Made by a program: the position numbers and the translations under genes | Source: a virus | DNA length: 40,628 nucleotides | Virus record (IMG/VR): IMGVR_UViG_3300007540_000032 | Coordinates: 1-40,628 of that record | Direction: 5' to 3' (one strand) | The notes under the pieces: generated by a model | Seen by the model: only the letters and a program-made list of their open reading frames with translations | Told to the model about the DNA's origin: nothing | The model's database searches: none | In this document: one piece after another, positions 2,381 to 26,808 of the stretch | Numbering within the stretch: position 1 is the first letter of the stretch | Layout of the letters: the number at the start of each line of letters is the position of its first letter

Positions 2381-3076
2381 ATGATTGATACAATTTATAA
2401 AGTACTATTGACTATAATGAATAAAGAAAACCAAGGATATATTTCACCCGAGGAATTTAATCTATTAGCTATCAATGTACAAAATGAAATCTTTAGGGGT
2501 TACTTTAATGACAGTAACTCAGCACAAAACAAACAAAACAGGGGTTTAACCAATAGGGGTTATGGAAATCAATCAGCTCAATCTAAAGCTGATATAAGCA
2601 GGTTTGCTACAGATGATGACTTAACAGTTACAGCAGGTATAGCAACTCTACCCACTAATCTATATGAAATAGAAGACAGGGGAGTATCTACAAATGGTGG
2701 TGTACTTATAGAAGTGGTGGATAGAAATGATATTGTCACACTGCTTAGAACAGAAGCAGCACCCACGGTCTTGTATCCTATATTTGAATACAGAGGAAAT
2801 GATACAATAAAAGTTTACCCTACCACTATCACGAACATAAATGTTAGATATATAAGAAAACCATTAGACCCAAAATGGACTTATACAATTGTATCTAACA
2901 AAGAATTATATGACCCAAGTAACGGGTCTTTCCAAGATTTTGAACTAGATTACTCAGAGTTCTCAAATATAGTATTAAGGATGCTTTCATTCTTTGGTAT
3001 TAATTTAAGAGAGGCAGAAGTAGTGCAAGTAGCAGAAGGGTTAAAGGATAAAATGAACTTAAAAGATAGCCAATAA
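2381..3076 (+). CDS. crAss-like tail/connector structural protein
   Basis: A 231-residue virion protein. An N-terminal helical part (residues 1-45) is followed by a Gln/Asn-rich low-complexity stretch (about 47-70). A beta-rich middle comes next, with YIRKPLDPKWTY near residue 160 and FELDYSEFSNIVLRMLSFFG near residue 190. I recall these two blocks as hallmarks of a short-tail or tail-hub family conserved right behind the capsid gene in crAss-like phages; the exact position in the particle is inference. It has its own terminator-promoter pair upstream, so it opens a separately controlled structural unit. Its TAA overlaps the next ATG by one base (TAATG), which points to translational coupling. 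Confidence 0.75.
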   Translation: MIDTIYKVLLTIMNKENQGYISPEEFNLLAINVQNEIFRGYFNDSNSAQNKQNRGLTNRGYGNQSAQSKADISRFATDDDLTVTAGIATLPTNLYEIEDRGVSTNGGVLIEVVDRNDIVTLLRTEAAPTVLYPIFEYRGNDTIKVYPTTITNINVRYIRKPLDPKWTYTIVSNKELYDPSNGSFQDFELDYSEFSNIVLRMLSFFGINLREAEVVQVAEGLKDKMNLKDSQ

Positions 3077-3954
3077 TGCCAACACCGATAAACACAAGTG
3101 CAGACTACTATGGAGATAGTACCTTATTTGGTAACTACCAATATGTAACACTAGAAGACATAGTAAACAATTATATAATGTCATCACAGGATGATGATTT
3201 CACAGCAAATGCAAACAGAAGAGTAGTTCTATTTCAAGCTAGAAGAGCATTTAGAGAATTATACTTTGACTCTATGCAAGAGATTAAAGGTATAAAACTA
3301 GATTTAAGCCCTACTCTTACTGTTACACTACCTCCGGATTTTGTTAACTTTGTTAGAATATCTTGGGTAGATGGGCTTGGTAAATTACATGAGCTATCTG
3401 TAAACAATAAGCTTGATATAGCTAGGGAGTATTTACAGGATGCTTCTTATCAAATATTGTTTGATGGAGGCGGTTGTGCTCTAGAGGCTAATAACATAGG
3501 TCTAGACATACCCGACGAAGTTGCTGATATAATAGCTGACGGTGCACAAGGTTTTGAGTTTAGTACTGATAATTCATTTGTACCAAATAAAAATTTCTCA
3601 GAAGATTTCTCTAGTGGTGGGTATGTGCTAGATAGACAAAGAGGTTTAATTATCTTTGGCTCTGAGACCTTTGGTAAATCCGTGGTATTAGAATACCTAT
3701 CTGATGGACTTTACACAGGATGTGAAGGTAGGACAGAAGCTGAGCTTAAGATACATAAATTTGCAGAGGATGCTGTATACAATTGGATATATTGGAAGCT
3801 TATAGAGAGACGTAGGAACGTACCTGCTAATGCTAAACAGTTTGCTAGAAAAGAGTGGTTCAATAGCAGAAGACTTTGTAAGAGAAGAATGCAAACCATT
3901 AGACCTTCTGAATTAAGAAAAGTATTCAAAGGTGCTAACAGATGGATTAAATAA
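3076..3954 (+). CDS. crAss-like ring/head-tail adaptor protein
   Basis: A 292-residue protein with GNYQYVTLEDIVNNYI at residues 19-34, a helical repeat-like region (RRVVLFQARRAFRELYFD), and a C-terminus rich in Arg/Lys (about residues 230-292). From memory this resembles the crAss-like family often annotated as P22 gp4-like tail stabilisation, now understood as a ring or adaptor protein below the portal. No enzyme motif is visible. The gene is coupled to the previous one by a one-base overlap. The basic C-terminus could contact DNA or the portal; that is inference. Confidence 0.75.
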   Translation: MPTPINTSADYYGDSTLFGNYQYVTLEDIVNNYIMSSQDDDFTANANRRVVLFQARRAFRELYFDSMQEIKGIKLDLSPTLTVTLPPDFVNFVRISWVDGLGKLHELSVNNKLDIAREYLQDASYQILFDGGGCALEANNIGLDIPDEVADIIADGAQGFEFSTDNSFVPNKNFSEDFSSGGYVLDRQRGLIIFGSETFGKSVVLEYLSDGLYTGCEGRTEAELKIHKFAEDAVYNWIYWKLIERRRNVPANAKQFARKEWFNSRRLCKRRMQTIRPSELRKVFKGANRWIK

Positions 3955-4017: not shown

Positions 4018-4260
4018 ATGAAAATGTTAAACAGCAACGTATGTTGCAAGAATTTGGATGAGGTAGTACAAAAGGTTGGTAATGTTATCATACCTAGTAA
4101 AAACAAAGCTTATAAACAACTTGAGGTTATATCCTCGGGTGATGATAAAGTTATTGTAGGTCAAACTATCTATGTACCAATAACTGCAGGATACGAGATA
4201 GAAATAGATAGAGAAAAATTCACGGTTGTGAATGCTAGAGAAATTATACTAATATTATAA
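4018..4260 (+). CDS. GroES-like co-chaperonin
   Basis: The 80-residue product lines up by eye with the GroES fold from its second strand onward. A flexible stretch (residues about 14-21) runs into GNVIIP (21-26), which corresponds to the mobile-loop motif GGIVLP that docks into GroEL. LEVISSG (35-41) matches the usual GEVVAVG segment, KVIVGQTIYVP (44-54) matches KVGDKVL, and FTVVNAREIILIL (68-80) matches the conserved C-terminal IVREDDIL strand. It is shorter than GroES (about 95 residues) and T4 gp31 (111), with a reduced N-terminal strand and no room for a roof hairpin. It lies in the virion operon just before the largest tail gene, while a phage GroEL is at 33599-35173. This is pattern recognition only; the fold call is likely but not proved. 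Confidence 0.7.
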   Translation: MKMLNSNVCCKNLDEVVQKVGNVIIPSKNKAYKQLEVISSGDDKVIVGQTIYVPITAGYEIEIDREKFTVVNAREIILIL

Positions 4261-4264
4261 GAAT

Positions 4265-7200
4265 ATGAAGTTACAGAACACATTTGTTCAAAGTAAGCTT
4301 AACCAAGATATTGATGAGAGATTACTACCTAAAGGACAGTATCCGGATGCATTAAACATTAGAGTAGCTAATTCAGAAGGTTCTGATGTTGGGGCTATAG
4401 AGAATGTTAAAGGTAATGAACAATTAACATCCCTAGGTCTTACTAATGCCGATACAATAGGTGCTTTTGCCGATGGCTCTAGCCAAAAGATTTATTGGTT
4501 TATAACATCTGACACTAAGGATTTAGTTGTTGAATACGATGTACCAAATGCTCAAACAAATATTTTATTAGAGTCTTCTAATCCCAATGGAGTATTAGCC
4601 TTTAATAAGAACTACCTTGTAACAGGTGTAGTTAAGATTGTAAATGGTGACTCTGATAGGGACTTACTTATTTGGACTGATGACTTAAACCCACCTAGGG
4701 TTGTAAATATTGAAAGAGCTAAAGGATATACTGCCGATGGCTTTTCTGAGTTGGATATAGCTCTAATAAAGAGACCACCTAGGAGTGCACCTTCGTGTAC
4801 GCTTACATATTCTCCAATAACAACAGAGAATAACTTAGAGAATAAATTCTTAACCTTCGCCTATAGATACAAATACTTAGATGGGGGTTACAGTGCTATA
4901 TCATCTTTTTCTAATTACCAATTCTCTCCTTCTGATTTTGAGTTAGATTATCAAACAATGGAGAATAATGGCATGGCTAATGCTTTCAACGCTGTTAAGA
5001 TTGATTTCAACACAGGTGATGAAAGGGTTACAGATATACAATTAGTATATAAAGAGTCTAATTCAAATACTCTTTATATTATTGAGTCCTTCAATAAAAC
5101 TAATGAGGTATGGGGTAATGATGAGACCCAATCATTTACATTTACAAATAGTAAAGTACTAGCAGCTCTTCCGGAAGATGAGCTTTTCAGAACATATGAC
5201 AACGTACCACGAAAAGCAAAAGCATTAGAGCTTATAGGTTCTAGGATTGCTTTTGGTAATTACGTTGAGCAGTACGACTTAAAGAATATATATGGTGAGG
5301 ATATTAATGTAGACTTCTCACTATCACTTACTCAGTTAGATTTAAACGGTGAAAATTTAGGTGTAACTATAGGGAATAGCGTTATAACAAATGACCTTAT
5401 CACTATAGATTTTACAGGTATTACACTAGCTGCAGGAAATAGACTTACATTTACTTTTGATTTAGGTAACGCAGCTTACGATGGCTTATATGGAGATACA
5501 TTTGATTTCATACTAAACCAAAATTTTGTAGATGCTACATCTTTAGCAAGTAACGCTGATTTTATATACTTTATAGAAACATTAATATCAGCAGCTTTTG
5601 AAGCAGGTTATACTATTACCCCCCCTACAGGTGGTGTAGTAACAAGTGCTGTAAATGGTTTTACTATTACAGGCTCTACAGCCACTTCAATTAGTATACT
5701 AGCACCTAACATCGTGTACACAGTAGATGCTGTAGATGAGACAGCTAGCTTCCAATGGGACACAAGTACACAAGTATTTTACAGAGAGGTTGCTGTAGCA
5801 TCATCATTAAAAACAAACAGGAGTTATGAGGTAGGTATAATCTATATGGATGCCGATGGCAGAAAAACTTTTGTACAAACTGACGAAGATAATACAATAT
5901 ATGTAGACCAAGAGTTTTCTACATTTCAAAATAAAATTGTAACAAATATAAATCACTTAGCACCCGAGTGGGCTGATAGGTATAAACTTGTAGTTAAGCA
6001 GAATAAAGGTGCTTACCAAACAATATACACCAACCTGTTTTATGAGGATGGATTATTTAGATGGATTAAACTAGAGGGTGCTAATATAGGCAAGGTAGTA
6101 CAAGGTGATACACTTATAGTTAAATCTGACTTAGGTGGTGCTTTAGCTGATGTTACCAAATTAAGGGTATTAGAGATTAAAGAACAACAATCAGACTTCT
6201 TAGGAGACGTTGCTGACCCCGACAATATTATTGAGGAGGAAGGTTTATATATGAGGGTTAAGCCTGTAGGTATTGATATGAGCTTTGATGAGTCAACTAT
6301 TAGAACTTATGAAGCAGGCTCTCACTTAAGATATACAGGTAGAACTCGTACATCACCTATATTTGGTGACGACAGTACAGGTGCATTTGTGCCATACCCT
6401 CTTAATGCAGGTTCTAGGGTTCGTATATATGTACAATTCAAAGCTAGAGGCTCTATCTCTTACACAGCAGAATATGACAAAAGCTTTAAAGTAAGTGGAA
6501 GCTACGCTTCTGTACAATCATGGTTTGAAACTGAGGTTATTGATTTAGGCTCTTTTGGTAGAGATTTCACTAGAGGGGTAACAACAGGCTCATTCCCTAA
6601 CTTCCTTGTAGGAGATGGTGAATATGGATATGGATATGGGTTCTGTGACTCAAATGGTGTACCTGTTGCAAATGGTTCAGACTTGGGTGAGAAATTTTTT
6701 GCATGGTCTCATAGAGATGGTACAGCTTCAAGGAAAATTACAACAACGATTAAAATTGAGATTCTAGCTTCTGATGGTACAATAATACTTGAAACTGAGC
6801 CGGAAGATAAAGGTACAGAATTATATTACGAAACATCACAAACATTTGATGTAATAGGTGGATACCACCAAGGTAACTTATTAAACCAATCTGCAGTGAA
6901 CCCTTCTGCTATAGTGGAGATGGATTTCTTCAACTGCTACGTTATGGGTAATGGAGCTGAGTCGTATAGGTTTAAAGATGCTAGGTATGTAGGCTCTGAC
7001 AGCGATGGTCAACAACTTTTGGCTAACTACTTAAACATAGACTTAAGACCTTCAACAACCTCAACAGAAAAATATAGAGAGGTTAGAAGATTTTCAGATA
7101 TTACTTACAGTGAGCCTTATAACGAGAACTCAAATGTAAATGGTATAGGCGTGTTTAATCTATCCAAAGCAAATTATAAAGAGGATTTAGATAAAAAATA

Positions 7201-9016
7201 TGGTACAATTCAAAAATTATTCTTTAGGGATACAAACCTTTTGGTGCTCCAAGAGGATAAAGTGGGTTATGTACTATTTGGTAAAGATATATTATACAAT
7301 GCTGACGGTTCTTCGAATGTATCTTCTGTAGAGGATGTCTTAGGAGATTTCAGAGCATATACAGGTGAGTATGGTATTAGTAGAAATCCGGAGAGCTTTG
7401 CATTTGATGCAAACAATGTTTATTTCATGGACTCTAAAAGAGGGTGTGTTTGTAGACTAGGAGCTGACGGAATTACTGAAATATCTATGGCAGGTATGAG
7501 ACAGTTCTTTAAGGATGATTTTAAGAATGCTATAGACCAAAAGAAATTAGGTTCGTATGACCCTTACTTAGACCAATATGTTGCTCACTCAAGTGTGGAC
7601 TTATTGCTAAAGCCTTTCTCAATAGATTGCTCAGATGTATTCTATAGAGGAGATACTAGTGGTGTATATGAAATAACAATAGATTATGGTATACTAGTGG
7701 GGAATGCAGGTTTTAGTTATGTAACTAATGGAGTTCCTGTTAACTTTACTTTAGAGTACGATGGTGTAGTAACTGATTATGGTTACTTCGGAGACCCTTC
7801 TTATGATTCAGTATTAATAGGTTTAGGATTACCTGCCACTACTGATGTAGGTACAGGCTCTATAGTATTTTCTAAAAATAAAAATATACCTAGAGATGCT
7901 GTACTAACAGTTACAGCCCCTATAGTAGGAACTAACTTCCAAATATCGGGTAATTGTGTCGTAGAGAATGAATTAACGGTTATCAATGTTATATTGAACA
8001 ACCCCGAGGATGAAGGTACTTCTATTAAGAGTAGATATAAATGGAGTACAGACACTTACTCATCACCTTTCACAACATATGATACAGTATTTGATGTAGA
8101 TGAGGTAGAGCTATTCAACACTGTAGTAGGTAATGAGGGCTCTATAAAAGTTCCTATAACAGGTAGTTCAGTTAGAGTAGAGTCTTACCAAGGTGTAGCA
8201 CAAAACTTAGTTTGGAATGGTGAGGAAAATAAGATAGGATATTTAATATCTAACACTTTATATACAGATGCAGATATTGAAGCCTTAGAGGCTGCTGCTA
8301 CGTTCCCTGCCTTTACGGAGGTTACAAATGGAGATGACGTAACTAGATATATAGAATTTGATTATGATAGACTCTCAAATGAGCAGTATTTATACATTAT
8401 ATGGGATTACAGAGATGTGGTACTAGGAATAAACGCCAATACTAAGATAAATATATACTTTGATTCTTCGGGGTCAATGAACTCTACTATTGCACCCCTT
8501 GAAACTATGAGGGATACATTACTTAGAGATGCATTATTACCTTTATATGGTGGTGATGTAGCAGCTTATGATGCAAACGTTACTGTCATATCACAGGCAA
8601 ATGAGAGAACTATAGACATGATGAATATAAATGGTACTACTCCTACAGGAAATGTTATATCATTAATATTCCAAGATGAGGCTAACCCTGTATACCAAGG
8701 TGTATCATTTGCAGATACTGATGCACTTACAGCACAGTATATAACTGACATAGCTGATTTCAGAGCTAGGCTAGCAGGATTTGCAGCTAACTACTTGAGA
8801 GTTGTTGTGTTCCAAGTTGATGAGTCGGGTGGAGCATTTGATTTCCAAAACTTTATAAAAGCTGTAGAACTTGGTACAGGTAACTATGCAGGAGCGAGTG
8901 GTTTATCAGATAGAACAGAGATAGCATACAAATATAACATAACAGACGGTGGTACAGCGAATTACTACTTAACACAGATATTATTAGCACTAACAGAATT
9001 AGGATATGAGCTCTAG
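4265..9016 (+). CDS. Giant tail-stub ('muzzle'/stabilisation) protein with C-terminal VWA-like domain
   Basis: This 1583-residue protein starts with the block I recall from crAss-like tail stabilisation/muzzle proteins: NQDIDERLLPKGQYPDALNI (residues 14-33), then GAIENVKGNEQLTSLG. Long beta-rich regions follow. Around residue 1030-1085 are the segments GEYGISRNPESFAFD and VYFMDSKRGCV, typical of the beta-propeller-like part. The last ~190 residues differ: INIYFDSSGSMNST places a DxSxS metal-site motif at D1400-S1404 after a hydrophobic strand, followed by NGTTPTGN and VVVFQVDESGG, which together resemble a von Willebrand A domain. The stop codon lies inside the next gene (11-base overlap). 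The domain suggests metal-dependent adhesion to a receptor or another tail protein; that is inference. Confidence 0.8.
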   Translation: MKLQNTFVQSKLNQDIDERLLPKGQYPDALNIRVANSEGSDVGAIENVKGNEQLTSLGLTNADTIGAFADGSSQKIYWFITSDTKDLVVEYDVPNAQTNILLESSNPNGVLAFNKNYLVTGVVKIVNGDSDRDLLIWTDDLNPPRVVNIERAKGYTADGFSELDIALIKRPPRSAPSCTLTYSPITTENNLENKFLTFAYRYKYLDGGYSAISSFSNYQFSPSDFELDYQTMENNGMANAFNAVKIDFNTGDERVTDIQLVYKESNSNTLYIIESFNKTNEVWGNDETQSFTFTNSKVLAALPEDELFRTYDNVPRKAKALELIGSRIAFGNYVEQYDLKNIYGEDINVDFSLSLTQLDLNGENLGVTIGNSVITNDLITIDFTGITLAAGNRLTFTFDLGNAAYDGLYGDTFDFILNQNFVDATSLASNADFIYFIETLISAAFEAGYTITPPTGGVVTSAVNGFTITGSTATSISILAPNIVYTVDAVDETASFQWDTSTQVFYREVAVASSLKTNRSYEVGIIYMDADGRKTFVQTDEDNTIYVDQEFSTFQNKIVTNINHLAPEWADRYKLVVKQNKGAYQTIYTNLFYEDGLFRWIKLEGANIGKVVQGDTLIVKSDLGGALADVTKLRVLEIKEQQSDFLGDVADPDNIIEEEGLYMRVKPVGIDMSFDESTIRTYEAGSHLRYTGRTRTSPIFGDDSTGAFVPYPLNAGSRVRIYVQFKARGSISYTAEYDKSFKVSGSYASVQSWFETEVIDLGSFGRDFTRGVTTGSFPNFLVGDGEYGYGYGFCDSNGVPVANGSDLGEKFFAWSHRDGTASRKITTTIKIEILASDGTIILETEPEDKGTELYYETSQTFDVIGGYHQGNLLNQSAVNPSAIVEMDFFNCYVMGNGAESYRFKDARYVGSDSDGQQLLANYLNIDLRPSTTSTEKYREVRRFSDITYSEPYNENSNVNGIGVFNLSKANYKEDLDKKYGTIQKLFFRDTNLLVLQEDKVGYVLFGKDILYNADGSSNVSSVEDVLGDFRAYTGEYGISRNPESFAFDANNVYFMDSKRGCVCRLGADGITEISMAGMRQFFKDDFKNAIDQKKLGSYDPYLDQYVAHSSVDLLLKPFSIDCSDVFYRGDTSGVYEITIDYGILVGNAGFSYVTNGVPVNFTLEYDGVVTDYGYFGDPSYDSVLIGLGLPATTDVGTGSIVFSKNKNIPRDAVLTVTAPIVGTNFQISGNCVVENELTVINVILNNPEDEGTSIKSRYKWSTDTYSSPFTTYDTVFDVDEVELFNTVVGNEGSIKVPITGSSVRVESYQGVAQNLVWNGEENKIGYLISNTLYTDADIEALEAAATFPAFTEVTNGDDVTRYIEFDYDRLSNEQYLYIIWDYRDVVLGINANTKINIYFDSSGSMNSTIAPLETMRDTLLRDALLPLYGGDVAAYDANVTVISQANERTIDMMNINGTTPTGNVISLIFQDEANPVYQGVSFADTDALTAQYITDIADFRARLAGFAANYLRVVVFQVDESGGAFDFQNFIKAVELGTGNYAGASGLSDRTEIAYKYNITDGGTANYYLTQILLALTELGYEL

Positions 9017-9749
9017 AGTAAATAAAACATTGACATTTGATGAGAAAGTAAAGGGGTGGACATCGTTCCATTCCTTCTTTCCCGAATATATGGTAGGTAT
9101 GAACAATAAGTTTTTCACATTTAATAATGGAGAGCTTTATGAGCATCACTCAGATAATGTGGCTAGAAATAATTATTACGGTATGCAATATGATTCTACT
9201 ATTGACGTAATGGTTAATGACTCACCATCTGAGATAAAGGAACTACAGGCTGTAAGCTTGGAAGGTAATGCTTCTTGGGAAGCACTTATACAGGCTTACA
9301 TATCAAACTCAGACGATGTTATGTCTAGTTCAATAACTGCTGCAGAATTTGTAAAGAAGGAGGGTATATGGTATGCATATGCTAGAAGGAATGAGAGTGA
9401 TATAGCTTTTGATTCTAAAGCCACTTATGGTTTAGGGACTATCTCCGGATTAACAGCAACTACGTTTGAGTTAAATGGTGGAAGCACTTCATTATGTATT
9501 GGTGATACCATTGTTAGGGGTTCAGACTTAAATCAAATTGGTGTTATAACTGCTATTAGTGGTAGCACAATTACTTTGGATACTACTGCAGGACTAGTTA
9601 ATGCTGACTTTGTAGTAGGTATGAAAGATTCTAGAATAGAGGGTGGTAACTTAAGAGGCTACACAATGAGGGTAGGTCTCTCAAGCTCTGCTGTAGGTAA
9701 GGTAGAACTATTTGCTGTAAACCTAGAGGTCATGAAAAGTTTTAGTTAA
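9006..9749 (+). CDS. Tail protein, companion of the 1583-residue tail-stub protein
   Basis: A 247-residue protein with an N-terminal block FDEKVKGWTSFHSFFPEYMV (residues 11-30) and FFTFNNGELYEH soon after. In related phages I recall this kind of block at the C-terminal end of the muzzle/stabilisation protein itself. Here it is a separate gene overlapping the 1583-residue gene by 11 bases, which fits a gene split caused by the VWA-like addition. The middle (about 145-205) is Gly/Thr/Ser-rich with beta-strand periodicity (GLTATTFELNGG, ISGSTITLDTT), like an inserted beta domain. No enzyme motif is seen. The role is structural by context. Confidence 0.7.
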   Translation: MSSRVNKTLTFDEKVKGWTSFHSFFPEYMVGMNNKFFTFNNGELYEHHSDNVARNNYYGMQYDSTIDVMVNDSPSEIKELQAVSLEGNASWEALIQAYISNSDDVMSSSITAAEFVKKEGIWYAYARRNESDIAFDSKATYGLGTISGLTATTFELNGGSTSLCIGDTIVRGSDLNQIGVITAISGSTITLDTTAGLVNADFVVGMKDSRIEGGNLRGYTMRVGLSSSAVGKVELFAVNLEVMKSFS

Positions 9750-9808: not shown

Positions 9809-10231
9809 ATGAAATTTAATTGGAAACTAGAAGATAAGTCCGTGTGCTACAAAAGATTAAAAATGTGGTGGGACGAGCATGATGCATTTGGTAGTAATCA
9901 TATACCTTACAATTCAGTACCTAACAGGGTTTTCACAGTATCTGTTGATTTAGAAGATGGAGAAGTAGATTTATATAGCGTAGCTATTATAATTACAGAC
10001 ACCGATATATGTTGGGTAGGTTGGATAACATCTAACCCTTTTTGTAAGGAAACAAAATATAAAGTAGGGGCTCTAAAATACCTCTACAACATAATATCTA
10101 TAGTAATGAAATCACAAGGTTTTGAGTCTATAGTTTCACACGCAAAGCTAAGTGGCTTAATGAACGCATTAGAAAACAGTGGATTTGAATTAGTAGAACC
10201 ACAAACAAACTTTTATATAAAAAATTTATAA
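9809..10231 (+). CDS. GNAT-like acetyltransferase-fold protein
   Basis: A 140-residue protein with the strand and helix pattern of small phage GNAT-like proteins. VAIIITDTDICWVGWITSNP (residues 58-77) would form the central strands, KYKVGALKYLYNIISIVMKSQGF gives the long helix, and SGLMNALENSGFELVE (112-127) resembles the C-terminal motif. Proteins of this kind often lie beside phage tail genes, where a catalytic role is unproven. No acetyl-CoA binding loop of classic form can be named with confidence. It is the first gene after the promoter at 9779 and ends one base before the next ATG. Confidence 0.6.
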   Translation: MKFNWKLEDKSVCYKRLKMWWDEHDAFGSNHIPYNSVPNRVFTVSVDLEDGEVDLYSVAIIITDTDICWVGWITSNPFCKETKYKVGALKYLYNIISIVMKSQGFESIVSHAKLSGLMNALENSGFELVEPQTNFYIKNL

Positions 10232-10232
10232 T

Positions 10233-10784
10233 ATGGCATCAGCAATAGGAGGAGCAATCTCCGGATTTAGTACAATAAAGCAAGGTAAAAAAATGATGGC
10301 TGCAGGTCAAGCAGGTATTGATAACTTCAAGTGGCAAGACCTTTCTAACCCTTATAAGAATTTAACAGCTAGTACTGCAGGAGCAGAAATGAGAGCTGAT
10401 GAGGGTGCTAGAGCTGCAGCTACGTCAGTTAACGCATTACAAGCAGGTGGTAACAGAGCTTTAGTAGGTGGTGTTGGTAAAGTACAAGCACAGAATAATT
10501 TACTTAATAGAGATATAGCAGCTTCTCTAGATGAAAAGAATAAAGAGATACAGTTTGCAGCAGCAGGTCAAGATGTCAATAACCAAGCTATTACAGAGAA
10601 AAGACAAGGTGATGAGCTAGCAGGTTATGGTAACATGGTTAATGTTGGTATGGATATGAAACAGAATGGTATGGGACAATTGGTTGCAGCAGCAGGAGCT
10701 ATTGACAGTGCAGCTATGACAGCAGCTACAGGTGGATTTGGTGGAAGTGGTATGTTAGGAGCTATAGCACCGAAAACTTCATAA
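10233..10784 (+). CDS. Inner-virion/ejection protein, Ala/Gly-rich
   Basis: A 183-residue protein very rich in Ala, Gly, Met and Gln, opening with AIGGAISGFSTIKQGKKMMAAG and closing with a Gly/Met-rich tail (GGFGGSGMLGAIAP). This composition and the helical amphipathic middle (about 60-130) resemble T7 gp14-like inner core proteins that are ejected into the host envelope. Its place just before two large helical internal proteins supports that. No cleavable signal peptide is evident. The assignment rests on composition and order, not on a shared motif. Confidence 0.65.
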   Translation: MASAIGGAISGFSTIKQGKKMMAAGQAGIDNFKWQDLSNPYKNLTASTAGAEMRADEGARAAATSVNALQAGGNRALVGGVGKVQAQNNLLNRDIAASLDEKNKEIQFAAAGQDVNNQAITEKRQGDELAGYGNMVNVGMDMKQNGMGQLVAAAGAIDSAAMTAATGGFGGSGMLGAIAPKTS

Positions 10785-12346: not shown

Positions 12347-15300
12347 ATGAACGAACTACAAGAGATTGTCAAAAAGATGATTGCTGCAGGTGAGTCGGAA
12401 GAGAACATCGCAATAGTTATTAAGCAATATAATAACAAAGCAACACCCAAAGAAGCCGAAGTACCAAAGGGGGACGAAGCCGAAGTGGTAAGTGGGGTTT
12501 CGGATTCTACTTCGGCAGAAAGTATTTCTTCATCGGACTCCGAGACACAGAATAAATTTCCACAAATTGAGAGACAAGACCCTACCCAAGAAGAAATGGA
12601 TGGGGTAAATGCTTATGTAGATAAGTTAAATGCTCCTATAGAAATTGGAGAGGATGCAGCTAGAGCAATAACAGCTCCGGAATTGGCTAAAGAACAAAAA
12701 GAATTAGAGGCTATTATTGCCTCTCGTCCTATTGTAGCTGACAACTCAAAAGAGGAAGCAAGATTAAAAGAAATCAACGATGCATTTGATAGACTTGCTG
12801 AGCCTCCAAAATCAATTAGAAAAATAAGCAATGAACAAATTGCTGAACTAGATAAGAAGCAAGACGAACTAACTACAAAAGCTGTTCGACTAGCTAAGGG
12901 TACTGATTTCTCTGTTGAAGAGATTTTAACTAATGATGGTACTTATCAAGACATTATAAAACAAAAGAATAAACTACACGACCAAAAACGTCTAGAGGAC
13001 GAAGTGATTAACAGGGTTGTTGAAGATACTAACTCAAACCAAGATGGATTTTTTGGTAAGGTTGGTAGAATGTTTGGTGGTGGTGACGAAGAGGTTACTC
13101 AAACAGCTAAGCTTTCAGATGCTATAGAAGAAGAGATACTACTATCACTAAAAGGAGATAATAGACAAAAAGAGAAGATAGCTAAAGGTTACGCAACACT
13201 AGATGAAAAAGAAACACTTATAGCAAATGCTAAGGTTAAAGTAATCACTGCTGAGAAGGAGTCTATTATAAACAAAGCAAAAGCTGCTAGAGCAGAAATT
13301 GAAGACCCTGCAGAACTAGAGAGAACATTACTAAACCTACAAACTAATTATGATGCTTTGTTAGGTCAAGTAGGTTTCGATAAAGCTAAAGGAATATTAA
13401 ATAACGCATTTGAGAAGACTGACAAGAGCCAAGCATTTGATGAAATACTATCTGATGATGGATTCTTCGGTACTACAGCAGATATGATTACAACGCTTGG
13501 AGAAGGTGTTACTCAGATAGCTTTAAAGGGTACTGTAGGCTTTACAGCAGATATTATGTCTTCTATTGGTGACTTAGGCTTCGATAGAGACGAATACAGC
13601 GTGTTTGATGCATTTTCTGATACGGTTGGACAGATAACAAACTATAACTATTTACCTACCTCTAAAGCAGCTAATACGAGGTTGTTTGATGATGCAGGAA
13701 ATTTAAACCTTACAGGAAAGACTATTTCTAAATCTTTCGCTGAGACTATACCATTTACATTAGCAATTATAAACGATGCTAGAAGAGGTAAGATAACAAA
13801 TCTTGAAGTAGGTTTAGGTAAGCTAGTTAGTGGTACTAGAAGTGCAAAGATGACTCAAAGCTTAAGGCTTATTGATTCAGCATTTAGACACACATTTTCA
13901 GATAACATAGTACAGGCAGAGGATTTAGGTCTTACAGGTAATGATGGTAAAATATACGCTACAACAATGTCTTCTGTTGAAGGTTTCGCTGAGATGGTTA
14001 TGCCGGATACAAGATTCTTTTCAACTACAGTAGGAGATAATTTAAAGAGAGCTTTTGTAAGAGACTTAAAATCTGCAGCTAGTAAAAAAGCTAGAGTACA
14101 GGTTGCTAAAAACTTCATGGGTAATGTAATCGGGGAACTTGGTGAGGAAGAGATTGTTCTTGCTGCACAAGACTTGATGGGCTATGCTATGGTTGTAGGT
14201 CACGAGAACTCAGAATTTTGGGATATTGCAAACCAAAAACAATTAGCAGCAGCTACAATAATTATGTCTACTCCTTTAAGTGGTTTAAACCTTAGAAGAG
14301 ATTACAAGGGTAACATAATGGATTTCTACAGTAAGGTGTCTGAGAATATTAACGGTATTACAGAGGACTTAAGAACAGAACTTGAGCTACCTCATCACAC
14401 TACAGAAACTAAGCAACAAATAACTAACGCTATATCTTGGGCTAATAACTTGAACAAAGCTATTACACTAGCTCCGGAGGGAGTTACAGGAAAGCAAGTT
14501 GACTTATTAATGGAGAAAGAAGCATTGGTACAAGAGAAGAAAAATCTTGACCCTGCTTTCCACGCACCTATAAATGAAAAAATTAAAGCATTAGAGGCTA
14601 AGATTGAGCCTATGAATGCTAAGACCAAAGAGGTTACAGCAGCAGCCGAAAAGAAACAAAAAGAAGAAGATGCAAAACGAAAAGAACGAGAGCAAGCAGC
14701 ACGAGCAAAAAGAGCTGCAGCAAAGGATGTCGGGACTAGAAAAACTAGTGAGACAACAGAAACCAAAAGTGTTGAGCAGCAGGGCGTTCAAGCCGAGGGT
14801 AAGAAAGAAGTAGGTAAACCTTACACAGCAGAAGAAGTACAAGAGACTACAGATGCTAAAGCTTTCGTAGTAGCTCAACAAACAGCTATGGCTAACAGAA
14901 AGGAAGACTCTAAACAAGTTGAAATCCTAGATGAAAAAACAGCTCAAAAAATTGTTGACGATGGTGGTAAATTATTCGTAACATCTGATGGTAAATCCGG
15001 AGGATACGTTAAGAAAGATGGTTACATGGGAGGTCTATTCAAAGACCCTACAGCTAACCGTTCACAAGCTGCAAAAGTATTACAAGAAGCTAGAGTAAAA
15101 GCAGGTGGTAAATTTTTCGATGCATTCGGTATCAATACTGAAACAGAAAAAGGTACTACCCTAGAGGACATCTATATCAAGAACGGATTCAGACCTGTTG
15201 CTAGATTATCTTTTGATGCAAACCAAGCACCTAAAGGATGGGAACAAACTAATCTTAAAGAGAGACCGGATAACGTATTCTTCGTCTATGACCCTGCTTA

Positions 15301-18300
15301 CAAAGCTAAGATAGGTGAAGGTCAGAGAATGGAAAACTATGACGATGCATACAAGTTAGCTGAAAGTTTCAAAAAAGGAAATCAGAATACAGCATTCTTT
15401 ACAGGTAAAGCTGCAGAAGCTTCTAGTAAAGTTCCTTATAAGCCTGTACTAAAGGTTGTGGATAAAAACTCTCCTGTAGCGAAAGCTTATGACATTTATT
15501 CAGCAGGTGGTAACTTCACAGGTCATATATCTAAGATGATTGCAGGTTTCGCTGAGAAACAAATAAAAGTTGCTGAGGCTATTGTAAAAGGTAAATTCAA
15601 AAGCTTCCTTGACATTGGTGCATCTGAGGGTGGATTAGTTAAGACTGTTGCATCACTAGGTGTAGACAAAGCTGTTGGTATTGACCCTAATACTCAAATG
15701 ATTGCTAACTTCAACTCTACTCCTGCAGTAAAAGGAGCTGAGCTTAGACAAGAGGCATTCCTTGCTTCATGGACTGAGGGTGATGGCACTAAAATCAACG
15801 AGTTTAAACCAAAAGAAAAATTTGAAGTGGTTAACGAAGATTTCGCTTTCCAATTCATGAACAACGATAGAAAAGCTCAAGTAGAAGCTGTTAAAGGTAT
15901 GATGACTGACGATGGTGTATTTATTACATCTGAGAAGTTTCATACAGCAAACAGTGAAGCTAATGAGCAAAAGAAATATGACCACCAAAAGAAGTACTTC
16001 AACGAAAGTGAACTAACTGAGGATAAGCAAACCATTATTAGTGGTATGGCTTCTGACATGGTTGGTGATACTGAGTACTTCCAAACTCTTAAAGATAATT
16101 TTGCTTTTGTAGAGGAATTTTGGAATGCAGGTGACTTCAAAGGATACCTAGCATCTGACTCTCAAGCTAAGCTTAATGAGATGAAGAAAAATATTGGTGA
16201 CCTATCTAGTGAGTTCACAGATAAAGAGTCTCAAACATCTAATGAAAATTTAGCTAAGGTAGAAGCTGAGGCTGAACAATTAAACAATGAGTTAGAGGAC
16301 TTTTTAGGTGAGGCAAACCCTAACCTACAATTAGACTCTAAAAAAGAAATAACATCCGAAGAGAAGAAGCAAGAGTTAGTAGCTGAGGCTACTGCTATGA
16401 TGGAAGCTGTAGAAGGTGATGGATTTACTGAGGAAGCCTTTACTGCTGAAAATGAACCAAAAGTTGAGGTAACACCTATCACAGTTAAAGAGAATAGTAA
16501 ATTAGCTAGTTCTCTTAAGAAGATGGGTCTTAAGGATTTAGTAGGTAAGAAAGTAAACCTAGTAATGGCTGACCAATTAAAGGTTGGTACTGTAGATATT
16601 AACGGTAAAAAGCTTAGAAGAATGGGTGGACACTTCTTTCCTCTTATAAAAGAGTTGAGAGGTAAAGTTGCTTGGGCTTCTATTAATGAGACTGCAGCAA
16701 TTAAAATTGTTCGTGGTGCTATTAAATCTGACTACACAGTGGTATATAACATGTATCCAAATGCTGTAGATTCAAATTTAGCTATACTTGAAACAATGAT
16801 TGAGTCTGTAGCTGCTCTTCCAAAAGCTGTTAATAAGCAAGTATTCGAAGAGTTTAAAACAATGCTACAAACAGGTGTATATGGTGAAGGTGGTAGAGAT
16901 ACTGAGAAGGTACGTAAATTTGCTGCAGAAGCTAAAAACTTTGGTGATATAGTTGCAGGTATTGGTACACTAGGTGTTGATACAAAAGCTGCTATCCTTA
17001 AGAAGGCTTTACCTTCTAAGAGGGTTAAAGCTTCAACTAAGCTAGGTAGAATATTACAGGATAATAAAATTGATATAGAGGATTTAAGAGCTCTAAACGT
17101 AGAACAGTTTGCTGCAGAATTGCCTGCAGGTGCTATGACTATGGTATTAGAGGTTCACGATAAAAATGGTAACAAAGTTACTTCTGAGACTGAGAGGGAA
17201 GCATTAATGACTCCGGCTCAACAAAAAGCAGAAGGATTACCAACACATCAAAACTACGATATTTACGTTAGAGGTAAAGCTGTAGCCATGCTAGAGGAAA
17301 CTGTTCCATTTTGGAATATGTATAAATCTGCTATGAGCACAATTAACGCTAAGGTAACAGGATTACTTAAACATGGTAAAGGAGAAAAAGCTAGAGCTTT
17401 CACAGCTAAAGAGGCTTATTCAAATGCTATGAGAAGTGCTGATTCTACAGCATCTCAATCTAAAGGATTATCTGAACCGGATGTAAGTATGTACGAGAAG
17501 TTTATCTCTTTATTAGGAAGAGCTTTCCCTTCTGTACAAGTTATTACAGACACAGCCGAGTTTAACACATTAATGGAAAACTTAACTGCTAAAGCTTTAA
17601 CCACTAAAAGTGGTAAAGTTTACGGAGCTGTTTACCAAGGTAAGCTATACTTAAATTCGGGTCTAGCTAACTTTAATACTCCTATTCACGAGTACGGTCA
17701 CGTTTGGATTAACACTGTTAAAGAAACTAACAAATCTCTTTATAACAAAGGTATGTCCCTAGTCAAAGGTTCAGAATATGAGGCTTCAATATTAGAGAGT
17801 AAAGAGTATACCAAGGTTACTAAACAAATGTTAAAAGAAGGAGCTACACAGGAAGAGGTAGACAATTATATACAAGAGGAAGCTCTAGCAACTGCTATTG
17901 GAGATAAAGGTGAAGCATTCGTAAAAGCTGCACAAAATAAAAACTTCACCAATTGGTTAAATCAGCTATTCTCATTCGTTAAAAAACTAACAGGTATCTC
18001 TAAGTATAGTGCTAAGCAATTACAGGATATTACTTTAGGTGAGTTTACTCAAGCTGTGGCTGTAGATATTATGTCCGGTAACGAGGTATTTAAGAAAGGA
18101 CAGGTTCAAACTTTGAATGATGCCCTTCAATTATCTATGGGTACAGGCAAATCCTTACAAGAGATTGTAGAGTTTGCAAGAGAAAAAGGATATGAGGATG
18201 CAGTTATTAAAGCTGCACTAGCTAAGCAAGGTTTCACAAGAGTTCAAGCTGAGACTGCACTAGCCACTATCATTCCTAAAGCAGTTGCAAAAGGAGCTGC

Positions 18301-21300
18301 TGAGGTAGTTAGAACAAATAAACAAAGCAACCTTAAAGCTGATGTGGATGCTGTAGGTATTGCACATGTTAAGAGCACTAAGTGGTATAGAGGTTTAACA
18401 ACCAACCAAAAGGATGCACTTAACAAGAAAGGTATCTCAGAGATATTAGGTGGTATGGAAGCTTCATTAAGAAAAGGCTCACAACCTAATAAAGAAGGTA
18501 AAGCTTTTAGAAATACAGTAAAAGAGGTTACAGGTCAAACAGACCAATCTAGAACTATTGTATCAACTGAGGCTAAGCTTCTTAAAGATAAATTCAAAGC
18601 TATGGAGCGTGGTGCTAAGATTGGTGCTGCAGAGATAAAGAAATTGAAAGCTGAGTTTATTAAAGAGATTTCTGCTAAGCTTAAGGAAATAGTTAATAAC
18701 AAATCTATGTCACTAGCTGAGGCTCGTAGAATATTATCTGCAGTTAACCAGCTTACATTTAGTAACTACGATAGAGTTGCACCATTGGTTGACAAGGTTA
18801 TTGACACTATAGAAAATAAAGGTATCAGAAGACAAATAAAACAGACTAAGACTAGATTAAGAAAGTCTTCAAGGTCTGAGAGAAATCCTGTTAACATGAG
18901 AGAGCTTGCAAAACAAGCTGTTAAAGTTAATGAGGCTCACCTTACTTATGCTCAAAGAGTAATATACAATGATATACTATCTGAAATAGCTAACGGATTC
19001 AAAGCTTCTTCAAATAAGAACTACAGAATGCCGAATGAAGAGGATATGATTAAGTCATTAGAGGCTCTTAACAAAGCTGCAGATACAGCTAGGTTACAGA
19101 AGTTAGCTGAGACAATGGGTATTGATGGCTCAAACCTTACTGTTGATGAGCTTGTAGCTTTATTAGAGTCTGAAAATGTAGACGAAGCTATTGATGAGAT
19201 GAAAGCTGAGAAACAAAAGGCAGCTAGAAAAGCTCTTGAGAAACAAGCTGAGTATGCTAGAATGGCGTTAGAGATAGTTGATGAGGCAGATATGTCAGAG
19301 CAGGAGAGAAAAGACGTTAGAACGCTTCAAAACGCTGATTTAACTTTATTGTCTTCTACAGACCTTAGAGATTTAATTAAGATTGTGGATAACATCGCTG
19401 AGAATAATAGCTTTGCATCATCCGGAAGTCTAATCTCTAAAGTAAGAGCTTACACAGCTTCAAATGAAGCAGTAGGAGTTTTCAATAAGGATGAGTTAAG
19501 CATGGTTAGAAAGACTATAATCACAGACTTAAAATCATTAGCTCTTATCTTTAAGAAGGTATTCATGAACACTAAGAAATCGGCTGTATTTAATAAGCTG
19601 TCGGGTCTTGGTAAATTGGGTATGGCTTACACTAGTCACAAGAAAGCTATGAATGCTTTAGCTAAAGAGTACGATAAAATGTTCGCACAGTTAAGTAAAA
19701 AGAATAAAGGTTTAGCTAAGCCGGAGAACACAATGCTCAGAGGTTTAGTTGGACAATTAATTCAAGGTACAACTGCTGAGGATTTTGATATAAACAAATC
19801 TAGAATAGAAGACCACATAGCACAGTCTAAAAAAGCTCAAGCTAAAAGTACTAGACTAGGTGTTGACGTTTTAGAAAAACAATATGAGAAACTAAAAAAT
19901 CTAAAATCTCAAGATGAGGTTATAAAATATACTAAAGGACTAAACGATGGTAATTGGGAGATAGTTGATTTTTGGTTAAATCACTTTGACTCACAAAAGG
20001 ATGCATTAAAATATAACACTGAGACTATACACGGTAAATCATTTGAAGAGGTTGTGGGTAACTACTTACCAATAAAAATGAAAGCTGATGGTAAAGTTGT
20101 TGAGGATATAGATAACCAACCATTCTTTGATAGAAATGGATTAGCTGCATCTAGTGCATCACCAACTACAATTAAGAGAACTAAGACTAAGAAGCTTCCT
20201 GCAGGTCGTGTATTAGATTTAGATTTTGATTCAGTGATGTTTAATAAAGCTTCTGCAGTATCTATTGACATAGAAACCTCAGCAGCTTATAAAGATGTAT
20301 ACAACTTCTTTAGAAGCCCTAACATGGAAAAAATGTTTGGTAATGAAACTATTGGAGTATTTAATAAGAAGTTAGCTGAGATGAGAAAGGTTCAATTAGG
20401 AATTTCTAGTATGAACTTAAATGAAGATGAGGTAACTAAAAATATAACTAAGATTGAAAGAGTTTGGAAATCTGTAGCTACAACTATTGGATTAGGTTCT
20501 ATCACTCAGTACCCTAAGCAGTATATCTCTGTAGCATTTAACGTTATGGCTCACTTAGGTGGACAAAGCGACTTAATGTTCAAAGCTATGTTTACTGATA
20601 AGACTAAAATTCCATTATTAGATATGGTTTCTATATCGTTAAGAGGGGAAACTCAAGCAGGTACAATCACAGGTGGTAATAGAATTTCAGAAGCTGAAAA
20701 GAAAGCTACTAAAGCTATTGCAGGGCAGGTTGCTCAGTTTACAGGTGAGGCTGCAAGTAAAGTTAGGGAGGCACTATTCTTCTCATTAAGAAAGGGTGAT
20801 GTTAACGTGGCTAAATCTTCTTGGATTGCTTTCTACCAAAAGTATTTACAGGATGCAGGAGAGACTGATATTGACATGACTACAGAGCATTTAAGAAAGG
20901 ACGAGAAGTTAAGACAAGAGGCAATCTCTTATGCTGAGCTTAAGGTAGAGGAAACACAAATTTCTTCTGATGAGTCTAGAGGCTCTGAGTTCTACCAATC
21001 TAAATCTGTTGATAGGTCTATTTTGAGAAGTATATTCTTACCTTACCAATCGTTCAACATCAACTCAAAAATGAGAATGATGAATGACTTAGGAATATTA
21101 AGTAGCAAGAGAGCTAGTAAAGAAGATAAACGAGAAGCTGCTGCATCTTTAACAGGTACAACTGCTGAGGTTATTACGTTCCACTCAATGAAGTATTACG
21201 TATTAGCTCAAGTGTTTGCTTTAGGTAAATCAGCTTTAGAGGATATGTTCGGATTGGAGCCACCGGAAGAGGATGAAGATGCTAAACAAGCTTTTGTATT

Positions 21301-21796
21301 CAAACAATGGTACTCAGCTTTAGCTAAAGATTTAAACCCCCTATCAATTGGTTCATTTACTGAGGATATTAGTATTGAGGTATTAAACCTTATTCAATAC
21401 CTTGCTGAGGCAGAGGGTGACGAAGCTTATATGGATTTCATTAAGCGTAAGAGAGATGACGGAGGACAAATGTTCTACAGATATAAAGATAAAGAAGAAA
21501 GAGGTCAAGCGTTTGGTGCTAGCTTATTAGGTGGTGGGGGTCTATACCAAATTCCATATACGCAAGCTGCAGAGATGCTTGACAATTTCGAACTAATTAA
21601 TACTCAAACTAGAAGAGATGATTATGGTAATTTATTTGAGTATGATTTTGATTCTAGTCAACAACAGTTCTTAAAATTATCATTTGCTGCAGAGTTTATC
21701 TCCTTATTTGGATTAGGTGAAGCAGACTCTAGGAGAGTTATGAGAAAGATTAGAAGAGATATAACAAAGAATACTAAAAAACAAAAAATTAATTAA
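12347..21796 (+). CDS. Giant multidomain internal virion protein (polyvalent-type)
   Basis: This single 3149-residue reading frame is 9.45 kb long. Visible parts: a Glu/Lys-rich low-complexity start (1-110); helical regions; a charged Lys/Arg/Glu coil at about 755-800; a domain at about 835-980 with YIKNGFRPVARLSFD and APKGW, which looks like the small domains of phage 'polyvalent' proteins; a Rossmann-like methyltransferase segment with FLDIGASEGG (D1089) and VNEDFAFQFM (near 1160); a zincin-like motif HEYGH at 1781-1785 with EEALAT at 1844-1849 as possible third ligand; long coils (2080-2330); and a conserved-looking C-terminus with FLPYQSFNI near 2890. It follows the ejection-protein genes, so it is probably packaged and delivered with the DNA. 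Activities are suggested by motifs only. It overlaps the next gene by one base. Confidence 0.75.
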   Translation: MNELQEIVKKMIAAGESEENIAIVIKQYNNKATPKEAEVPKGDEAEVVSGVSDSTSAESISSSDSETQNKFPQIERQDPTQEEMDGVNAYVDKLNAPIEIGEDAARAITAPELAKEQKELEAIIASRPIVADNSKEEARLKEINDAFDRLAEPPKSIRKISNEQIAELDKKQDELTTKAVRLAKGTDFSVEEILTNDGTYQDIIKQKNKLHDQKRLEDEVINRVVEDTNSNQDGFFGKVGRMFGGGDEEVTQTAKLSDAIEEEILLSLKGDNRQKEKIAKGYATLDEKETLIANAKVKVITAEKESIINKAKAARAEIEDPAELERTLLNLQTNYDALLGQVGFDKAKGILNNAFEKTDKSQAFDEILSDDGFFGTTADMITTLGEGVTQIALKGTVGFTADIMSSIGDLGFDRDEYSVFDAFSDTVGQITNYNYLPTSKAANTRLFDDAGNLNLTGKTISKSFAETIPFTLAIINDARRGKITNLEVGLGKLVSGTRSAKMTQSLRLIDSAFRHTFSDNIVQAEDLGLTGNDGKIYATTMSSVEGFAEMVMPDTRFFSTTVGDNLKRAFVRDLKSAASKKARVQVAKNFMGNVIGELGEEEIVLAAQDLMGYAMVVGHENSEFWDIANQKQLAAATIIMSTPLSGLNLRRDYKGNIMDFYSKVSENINGITEDLRTELELPHHTTETKQQITNAISWANNLNKAITLAPEGVTGKQVDLLMEKEALVQEKKNLDPAFHAPINEKIKALEAKIEPMNAKTKEVTAAAEKKQKEEDAKRKEREQAARAKRAAAKDVGTRKTSETTETKSVEQQGVQAEGKKEVGKPYTAEEVQETTDAKAFVVAQQTAMANRKEDSKQVEILDEKTAQKIVDDGGKLFVTSDGKSGGYVKKDGYMGGLFKDPTANRSQAAKVLQEARVKAGGKFFDAFGINTETEKGTTLEDIYIKNGFRPVARLSFDANQAPKGWEQTNLKERPDNVFFVYDPAYKAKIGEGQRMENYDDAYKLAESFKKGNQNTAFFTGKAAEASSKVPYKPVLKVVDKNSPVAKAYDIYSAGGNFTGHISKMIAGFAEKQIKVAEAIVKGKFKSFLDIGASEGGLVKTVASLGVDKAVGIDPNTQMIANFNSTPAVKGAELRQEAFLASWTEGDGTKINEFKPKEKFEVVNEDFAFQFMNNDRKAQVEAVKGMMTDDGVFITSEKFHTANSEANEQKKYDHQKKYFNESELTEDKQTIISGMASDMVGDTEYFQTLKDNFAFVEEFWNAGDFKGYLASDSQAKLNEMKKNIGDLSSEFTDKESQTSNENLAKVEAEAEQLNNELEDFLGEANPNLQLDSKKEITSEEKKQELVAEATAMMEAVEGDGFTEEAFTAENEPKVEVTPITVKENSKLASSLKKMGLKDLVGKKVNLVMADQLKVGTVDINGKKLRRMGGHFFPLIKELRGKVAWASINETAAIKIVRGAIKSDYTVVYNMYPNAVDSNLAILETMIESVAALPKAVNKQVFEEFKTMLQTGVYGEGGRDTEKVRKFAAEAKNFGDIVAGIGTLGVDTKAAILKKALPSKRVKASTKLGRILQDNKIDIEDLRALNVEQFAAELPAGAMTMVLEVHDKNGNKVTSETEREALMTPAQQKAEGLPTHQNYDIYVRGKAVAMLEETVPFWNMYKSAMSTINAKVTGLLKHGKGEKARAFTAKEAYSNAMRSADSTASQSKGLSEPDVSMYEKFISLLGRAFPSVQVITDTAEFNTLMENLTAKALTTKSGKVYGAVYQGKLYLNSGLANFNTPIHEYGHVWINTVKETNKSLYNKGMSLVKGSEYEASILESKEYTKVTKQMLKEGATQEEVDNYIQEEALATAIGDKGEAFVKAAQNKNFTNWLNQLFSFVKKLTGISKYSAKQLQDITLGEFTQAVAVDIMSGNEVFKKGQVQTLNDALQLSMGTGKSLQEIVEFAREKGYEDAVIKAALAKQGFTRVQAETALATIIPKAVAKGAAEVVRTNKQSNLKADVDAVGIAHVKSTKWYRGLTTNQKDALNKKGISEILGGMEASLRKGSQPNKEGKAFRNTVKEVTGQTDQSRTIVSTEAKLLKDKFKAMERGAKIGAAEIKKLKAEFIKEISAKLKEIVNNKSMSLAEARRILSAVNQLTFSNYDRVAPLVDKVIDTIENKGIRRQIKQTKTRLRKSSRSERNPVNMRELAKQAVKVNEAHLTYAQRVIYNDILSEIANGFKASSNKNYRMPNEEDMIKSLEALNKAADTARLQKLAETMGIDGSNLTVDELVALLESENVDEAIDEMKAEKQKAARKALEKQAEYARMALEIVDEADMSEQERKDVRTLQNADLTLLSSTDLRDLIKIVDNIAENNSFASSGSLISKVRAYTASNEAVGVFNKDELSMVRKTIITDLKSLALIFKKVFMNTKKSAVFNKLSGLGKLGMAYTSHKKAMNALAKEYDKMFAQLSKKNKGLAKPENTMLRGLVGQLIQGTTAEDFDINKSRIEDHIAQSKKAQAKSTRLGVDVLEKQYEKLKNLKSQDEVIKYTKGLNDGNWEIVDFWLNHFDSQKDALKYNTETIHGKSFEEVVGNYLPIKMKADGKVVEDIDNQPFFDRNGLAASSASPTTIKRTKTKKLPAGRVLDLDFDSVMFNKASAVSIDIETSAAYKDVYNFFRSPNMEKMFGNETIGVFNKKLAEMRKVQLGISSMNLNEDEVTKNITKIERVWKSVATTIGLGSITQYPKQYISVAFNVMAHLGGQSDLMFKAMFTDKTKIPLLDMVSISLRGETQAGTITGGNRISEAEKKATKAIAGQVAQFTGEAASKVREALFFSLRKGDVNVAKSSWIAFYQKYLQDAGETDIDMTTEHLRKDEKLRQEAISYAELKVEETQISSDESRGSEFYQSKSVDRSILRSIFLPYQSFNINSKMRMMNDLGILSSKRASKEDKREAAASLTGTTAEVITFHSMKYYVLAQVFALGKSALEDMFGLEPPEEDEDAKQAFVFKQWYSALAKDLNPLSIGSFTEDISIEVLNLIQYLAEAEGDEAYMDFIKRKRDDGGQMFYRYKDKEERGQAFGASLLGGGGLYQIPYTQAAEMLDNFELINTQTRRDDYGNLFEYDFDSSQQQFLKLSFAAEFISLFGLGEADSRRVMRKIRRDITKNTKKQKIN

Positions 21797-22524: not shown

Positions 22525-22596
22525 TGGTCACAGTAGGGATTGAACCTACGACCTATCCCTTATGAGGGGAGTGCTCTACCTCTGAGCTATGTTGTA
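22525..22596 (-). tRNA. tRNA with CAU anticodon (Met/Ile2 type), damaged acceptor stem
   Basis: The D arm (GCTC/GAGC), anticodon loop CTCATAA and T arm (GTAGG/CCTAC with TTCAATC) are normal. The acceptor 3' strand TGTGACC meets 5' strand TACAACA and only the inner three of seven pairs form. The outer bases of the 5' strand belong to the 3' end of the neighbouring tRNA (overlap 22595-22596). It may be non-functional, edited after transcription, or the result of a deletion fusion. Confidence 0.65.
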
Positions 22597-22678
22597 GCGA
22601 GAGTGGGACTCGAACCCACGGGGTCTTTCGACATGGGGATATGAACCCCACAAGCTTCCATCTACTGACTACCTCGCT
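22595..22678 (-). tRNA. tRNA-like, CAU anticodon with extended variable arm
   Basis: The acceptor arms AGCGAGG/TCTCGCT pair at all seven positions (one G-U). The anticodon stem TGGGG/CCCCA holds the loop TTCATAT (anticodon CAU). The variable region is about 14 bases with a GTC-GAAA-GAC hairpin, i.e. class II architecture. T arm GTGGG/CCCAC with TTCGAGT is normal. Three G:C pairs at 29-31/39-41 recall initiator tRNAs. The D stem is poor. Met and Ile tRNAs are normally class I, so the amino acid identity is unclear. Confidence 0.7.
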
Positions 22679-22688
22679 ATATATTATG

Positions 22689-22696
22689 CAAATATA
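22689..22696 (-). promoter_or_regulatory. Promoter -7 element for the leftmost tRNAs
   Basis: On the minus strand TATATTTG followed by CATAATATA lies about 10 bases before the 5' end of the CAU tRNA at 22678, so transcription could start almost at the mature 5' end. A clear -33 TTTG was not found. Confidence 0.6.
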
Positions 22697-22744
22697 AGCA
22701 AAATTATTTACATAATGTTACATTAACTAACATTTAACTTTTAG

Positions 22745-22831
22745 AGCAGCAGGTGAGATTCGAACTCACGGTGTGACATTATCTGACTAGCTTGGAAGGC
22801 TAGTACAATCGACCAACTATGCGACTGCTGC
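22745..22831 (-). tRNA. tRNA-Gly(UCC)-like with long variable arm
   Basis: The acceptor GCAGCAG/CTGCTGC pairs at all seven positions and U is the discriminator. G1:C72, C2:G71 and U73 are the bacterial GlyRS identity set. Anticodon stem CTAGC/GCTAG with loop CTTCCAA gives UCC. T arm GTGAG/CTCAC with TTCGAAT is normal. The variable region is 17 bases, whereas tRNA-Gly normally has 4-5, so this is a class II body with a Gly anticodon and Gly acceptor. Confidence 0.75.
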
Positions 22832-22837
22832 AATTTG

Positions 22838-22910
22838 TAGAAACAATAGGATTTGAACCTATGACCCTCTCGGTATCAGCGAGGTGCTCTACCAACTGAG
22901 CTATGCTTCT
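22838..22910 (-). tRNA. tRNA-Ile(GAU)
   Basis: A canonical class I cloverleaf: acceptor AGAAGCA/TGTTTCT (one G-U), D arm GCTC/GAGC with AGTTGGTA, anticodon loop CTGATAC (GAU), 5-base variable loop, T arm ATAGG/CCTAT with TTCAAAT, A73. The outermost anticodon-stem pair is C-A. Confidence 0.85.
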
Positions 22911-22916
22911 ATTTAG

Positions 22917-22990
22917 TACTCCCTCTTGGACTCGAACCAAGGGCATTCCCCTTAAAAAGGGGGAGCTCTAACCAACTGAGCTAAGGAAGC
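22917..22990 (-). tRNA. tRNA-Lys(UUU)
   Basis: A canonical class I cloverleaf: acceptor GCTTCCT/AGGGAGT with G-U at two positions, D arm GCTC/GAGC with AGTTGGTTA, anticodon loop TTTTTAA (UUU), T arm CTTGG/CCAAG with TTCGAGT, A73. UUU suits the Lys AAA-rich genes of this phage. Confidence 0.88.
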
Positions 22991-22995
22991 AATTG

Positions 22996-23068
22996 TGGAG
23001 AAGAAGGGAATTGAACCCTCGAGGCTTGCAGTGCAAGTGCAAGTGTCTAGCCAACACGACACATCCCC
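22996..23068 (-). tRNA. tRNA-Ala(UGC), atypical D arm
   Basis: Acceptor GGGGATG/CTTCTCC contains the G3:U70 wobble and A73 that identify tRNA-Ala. The anticodon stem TTGCA/TGCAA with loop CTTGCAC gives UGC. T arm GAGGG/CCCTT with TTCAATT is acceptable. The best D stem TGTC/GACA leaves almost no linker after the acceptor stem, and position 6-67 is a T-T mismatch. A terminator-like hairpin ends four bases before its 5' end. Confidence 0.7.
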
Positions 23069-25245: not shown

Positions 25246-25261
25246 TACTTTATTAATTTTA

Positions 25262-26606: not shown

Positions 26607-26645
26607 AGTAAAATAATTTACATGACAATAAAAAAAGTAAAAAAG

Positions 26646-26717: not shown

Positions 26718-26726
26718 ATAATTACC

Positions 26727-26806: not shown

Positions 26807-26808
26807 AG

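Follow-up and report, generated by a model that had tools for sequence, protein, structure and literature searches.

T4 gp31, a phage-encoded co-chaperonin, lacks roof loops and works together with the GroEL of the host (PMC6318259). In chloroplasts, functional lids combine single and tandem subunits, which together contribute seven domains (PMC5780408, PMC4242682). In Cellulophaga phage phi38:1, Flavobacterium phage elemoA and Maribacter phage Panino, groES is located no more than one gene away from groEL. In the DNA analysed here (the window, a 40.6-kb virus fragment that starts inside the capsid gene), by contrast, groES is found in the block of virion genes, on the other strand and about 29 kb away from groEL.

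The capsid, ring and muzzle-type proteins of the window match those of phi38:1 (Pervagoviridae), elemo (Elemovirus) and Panino, i.e. phages of marine flavobacteria, and because the open reading frame (ORF) past the muzzle gene (9006–9749) matches the Crassvirus muzzle C-terminal domain, the window phage is, as judged by sequence, crAss-like in its virion genes. Directly 5' of groES, with a gap of 63 bp, lies the gene for a ring-type virion protein (3076–3954, plus strand; phrog_13977, virion structural protein, and family alignment), and directly 3', after 4 bp, that for a muzzle-type virion protein (4265–9016, plus strand; phrog_14478, virion structural protein). While groES is thus co-directional with the virion genes, groEL runs with the replication genes on the opposite strand. 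An ORF of 3149 aa (12347–21796) closes the virion block. The phage also has seven tRNA genes, which lie in two clusters of the window (22594–23068 and 26645–26891), and near these a gene for a polynucleotide kinase-phosphatase (AAA_33 and HAD_PNKP) adjoins an RNA-ligase-like gene (24319–26569), with which it possibly forms an RNA or tRNA repair pair.

The short open reading frame and its predicted fold

The ORF at 4018–4260 (plus strand; exact coordinates verified), which runs from ATG to TAA, encodes a single-domain protein of 80 aa, in which an earlier note, made from the sequence alone, had seen a trimmed GroES-type co-chaperonin residing within the virion genes. Both the identification and the location hold. 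The Pfam profile PF00166 (Cpn10) matches with an E value of 7.4e-6 and 26.4 bits, i.e. above the Pfam cutoff of 21.1 bits, over positions 3–92 of 93; PHROG 3188, co-chaperonin GroES, matches at E 2.3e-6; and in a search of PDB chains with the single sequence the best four matches are GroES/Cpn10 proteins (top E 4e-4). Moreover, a hidden Markov model trained on GroEL-adjacent phage GroES proteins alone, with all members found at the ring–muzzle position (the slot) excluded, gives the ORF 34.7 bits, as compared with 10.1 bits for the best of 5000 shuffles. The only matches from tblastn against annotated phages were marginal ones to Klebsiella head-closure proteins (E>=0.1); this lead was dropped, as the profile and fold searches strongly favour GroES.

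The AlphaFold2 (AF2) monomer model, with a mean pLDDT of 85.7 and a pTM of 0.73, is of the GroES type, and its low-confidence parts are confined to two ten-residue blocks that make up residues 11–30, i.e. the mobile loop. All 11 Foldseek matches to the PDB at E<=0.001 are GroES/Cpn10, with TM scores (by query length) of 0.67–0.79 for these best eleven; T4 gp31 is matched as well (E 0.015), and nearly all named viral structure matches carry the annotation co-chaperonin GroES or chaperonin Cpn10. Thus, the profile search and the fold prediction that the earlier note had proposed as checks both came out in favour of GroES. Membership of the Cpn10/GroES family is confirmed at the level of sequence and structural model, and the ORF encodes a phage GroES of the usual kind with only slight trimming: the family is known, and it is the location of the gene that is unusual.

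GNVIIP and the other GroES-like motifs that had been pointed out are present in the translation. The mobile-loop segment (residues 15–30; 4060–4107, plus strand) aligns with the GroES mobile loop, falls within the low-confidence region of the model and is conserved in the slot family. Within it, alignment with the GroES loop places the putative GroEL-contacting motif G-N-V-I-I-P (residues 21–26; 4078–4095, plus strand) with its hydrophobic tripeptide; the G-N-V-I-I stretch is the counterpart of G-G-I-V-L in bacterial GroES, as also seen in the PDB alignment. Close slot members keep the tripeptide in contexts of the VII, IIV, VIV and IIP type, contig L120 keeps it as FII, and the more distant members L121 and L153 keep it in part (LYK, LYA). 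What has been trimmed is the roof hairpin over the dome, which is absent from the ORF in the alignment with GroES. The same trimming is common to other phage GroES proteins, e.g. that of elemo, which is similarly short in the roof region, and since gp31, an accepted co-chaperonin, has no roof hairpin either, the latter is not a defining GroES feature. In the sister contig L004, the slot GroES (10001–10303) carries a 20-residue insertion around EPRKWYKKLINKILGIEG at the place where a roof hairpin would be expected.

Slot GroES proteins of 59–100% identity occur in ten IMG/VR contigs, one of which (L001) is identical to the window, and a GroES-like ORF occupies the same slot in three more distant contigs (L120, L121 and L153). 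With dN/dS values of about 0.07–0.23 for pairs at 68–84% nucleotide identity, slot groES is by these sequence measures under purifying selection and conserved in 13 other contigs. Most members have a gap of 4 bp downstream and of 21–63 bp upstream, with overlapping genes in L121 and L153. Taken singly, L004, L120 and L121 do not reach the Pfam cutoff for Cpn10. A short inverted repeat just 5' of the window groES might have formed a regulatory hairpin, but this idea was dropped, as L002 and L003 lack its 5' arm.

The invariant position between the ring and muzzle genes might also be taken to mean that the protein is a part of the virion, i.e. a structural protein that uses a GroES-like barrel at the ring–muzzle tail junction, and a weak likeness to the head-closure protein Hc1 (phrog_161, E 0.022, below significance; weak tblastn matches) points the same way. 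We regard this as highly improbable: the Cpn10 match is better by about four orders of magnitude, the mobile-loop motif is retained, and, with the slot being empty in most relatives, the protein is not needed for building the tail. A further argument, the swap with the GroEL-adjacent GroES, comes from the comparison of gene order.

Gene order at groEL and at the ring–muzzle junction

The proposed partner, a phage GroEL of 524 aa, is encoded on the minus strand at 33599–35173. The earlier description of this GroEL as complete, with intact ATPase residues, proved correct: the NCBIfam equivalog TIGR02348 matches with 589 bits (cutoff 582), the motifs TKDG, GDGTTT, DALGATRAA and GGGIAL are all intact, and alignment to solved GroELs indicates that the apical helices that correspond to the GroES-binding groove have remained hydrophobic. 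The protein ends with TIVNSDTE, without the glycine-methionine-rich C-terminal tail that is typical of bacterial GroEL. Adjoining groEL is the gene for a 158-aa protein (35175–35651, minus strand) homologous to phi38:1 gp006 (BLASTP E 1e-13, 36% identity over 77 aa). In phi38:1 this small gene separates groEL and groES, and its homologue in the window thus marks the position at which GroES is missing.

A single-domain GroES is encoded at most one gene away from GroEL in nine phages (phi38:1, elemoA, Panino, G094–G098 and G101), whose ring and muzzle genes adjoin each other. None is found beside GroEL in the window, G010 or G093, the three slot genomes in this comparison, of which the window and G010 (45.4 kb) are fragments; here, the only single-domain GroES found is that in the ring–muzzle slot. 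Conversely, in 34 other loci with a readable junction, no more than about 14 bp separate the ring gene from the muzzle gene. In the ring-protein tree, the slot carriers form one side of one branch (99/91); their nearest relatives, phi38:1 and L122, both have the adjacent arrangement. In the GroES tree the slot proteins form a single clade (99/95). Based on the ring-protein tree and the retained phi38:1-type small gene, groES beside groEL is probably the ancestral state, from which the slot position would have been derived once. Since the swap corresponds to about one evolutionary event, its exclusivity is suggestive rather than statistically independent evidence. In the literature searched, no description of a groES gene located between ring and muzzle genes was found.

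Given this reciprocal swap between the GroEL locus and the ring–muzzle slot, the ORF most likely encodes, as far as comparative sequence data go, the partner of the phage GroEL at a new location and not a component of the virion. For the same reason, the earlier suggestion that the GroES-like subunit redirects host GroEL is disfavoured, as the swap favours pairing with the phage's own GroEL. Two contigs (L032 and L033; 22 and 41 kb) encode a GroEL that is 47% identical to that of the window and have no Cpn10 detectable within either contig; these phages may use another or very divergent lid.

The second, tandem co-chaperonin

The isolates and many contigs of the clade also encode a conserved tandem Cpn10 protein of 180–195 aa directly upstream of the terminase, which PHROG 13932 already labels as co-chaperonin GroES. 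As the window begins inside the capsid gene, the corresponding region lies beyond it, and the examples come from other contigs (L209:3319–3885; L208:1180–1746; L006:4978–5562); within the subgroup of the window, the sister contigs G010 and G004 have the gene. The best PDB matches of the AF2 model of the L209 protein (pLDDT 82.7) in Foldseek are two tandem co-chaperonin chains of Chlamydomonas 7ekq over the full length, of which chain R is named Cpn20, and the predicted fold is thus closest to that of chloroplast Cpn20. We found no description of a phage tandem GroES as such in the literature searched.

With two kinds of co-chaperonin, the partners could also be distributed differently, such that the slot protein is a gp31-type lid that caps host GroEL for the phage capsid protein, and the phage GroEL is served by another lid, e.g. 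the tandem protein. The ORF is indeed roofless like gp31, which partners host GroEL (PMC6318259), and a second co-chaperonin is available in the clade. Yet the slot gene is found in just those phages that have no GroES beside GroEL, and the tandem protein occurs also in phages that keep the adjacent gene and is therefore no replacement for it. Moreover, gp31-type systems are defined by a phage without its own GroEL, whereas here the same contig carries a complete one. This distribution of partners thus seems quite improbable.

A separate issue, which concerns the origin of the slot gene rather than its function and is compatible with its pairing with the phage GroEL, is whether it arose as a copy of the tandem C-terminal domain or of host GroES, with the adjacent gene being lost afterwards. 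We consider this rather unlikely, as the best GroES tree places slot GroES with the GroEL-adjacent GroES of Panino (91/79); with proteins too short to decide, however, a placement among the tandem C domains is not firmly rejected (p-AU 0.082), nor is one among the phi38:1-type genes (p-AU 0.26).

By analogy to chloroplasts, a mixed lid of single-domain GroES and tandem protein is possible in these phages. More speculative, and on balance doubtful, is the further proposal of a mixed lid of seven domains, for which the relocation would have brought both genes into the virion operon, such that the supply of lid rather than of GroEL would set the time of closure of the capsid-folding chambers.

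A working model and its known counterparts

Overall, we consider it likely that the single-domain roofless GroES caps the phage's own GroEL as a heptameric lid, and that its gene was displaced, or replaced, from the groEL side into the ring–muzzle junction. On the model of the homologous GroES and gp31, the lid would be assembled from seven copies and would bind the apical domains of the presumed partner GroEL (33599–35173) through the mobile loop and thereby form a dedicated phage folding chamber. In an ancestor of the subclade, the single-domain groES would have moved, or have been lost and replaced, and in its new position it is probably co-transcribed and translationally coupled with the virion genes. 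The likeliest client would be the abundant capsid protein (451 aa, 49 kDa), whose size suits a GroEL cavity, or else those ring or tail proteins that the cavity can accommodate; the muzzle protein, at 175 kDa, is too large to be enclosed. Late expression of groES would follow only if regulation of the gene blocks resembles that in other tailed phages, and a chamber that is switched on for virion proteins, as suggested in the earlier note, is likewise conjectural. No phi38:1 transcriptome that gives expression timing was found in the literature searched.

The reciprocal swap thus represents a natural experiment, which indicates, at the sequence level, that a short protein easily missed by annotation is a working GroES, and which places a lid gene among virion genes. 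Together with the Cpn20-like tandem protein, it raises the questions of whether phages assemble mixed co-chaperonin lids and whether lid supply is a control point for the folding of capsid protein.

Compared with bacterial GroES/Cpn10 (PDB 8wuw, 1wnr, 1aon), the window protein shares the fold, the profile match and the hydrophobic tripeptide of the mobile loop, whereas the bacterial proteins have about 95 residues and a roof hairpin and are 18–28% identical to it in structural alignments. With T4 gp31 (PDB 1g31) it has in common the GroES fold, the phage origin and the missing roof loops, but gp31 is longer (12 kDa, with a 22-residue mobile loop) and has the GroEL of its host as partner, whereas the window phage encodes its own. 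The tandem protein resembles chloroplast Cpn20 (PDB 7ekq) in its two Cpn10 domains arranged head to tail and differs from it in being phage-encoded, at 180–195 aa, with a hetero-oligomer with a single-domain lid being hypothetical. Close counterparts of the window protein are phi38:1 gp007 and the GroES proteins of elemoA and Panino, which are of similar size (83–91 aa), belong to the same phage clade and protein family, likewise have a mobile loop and come from genomes that also encode GroEL.
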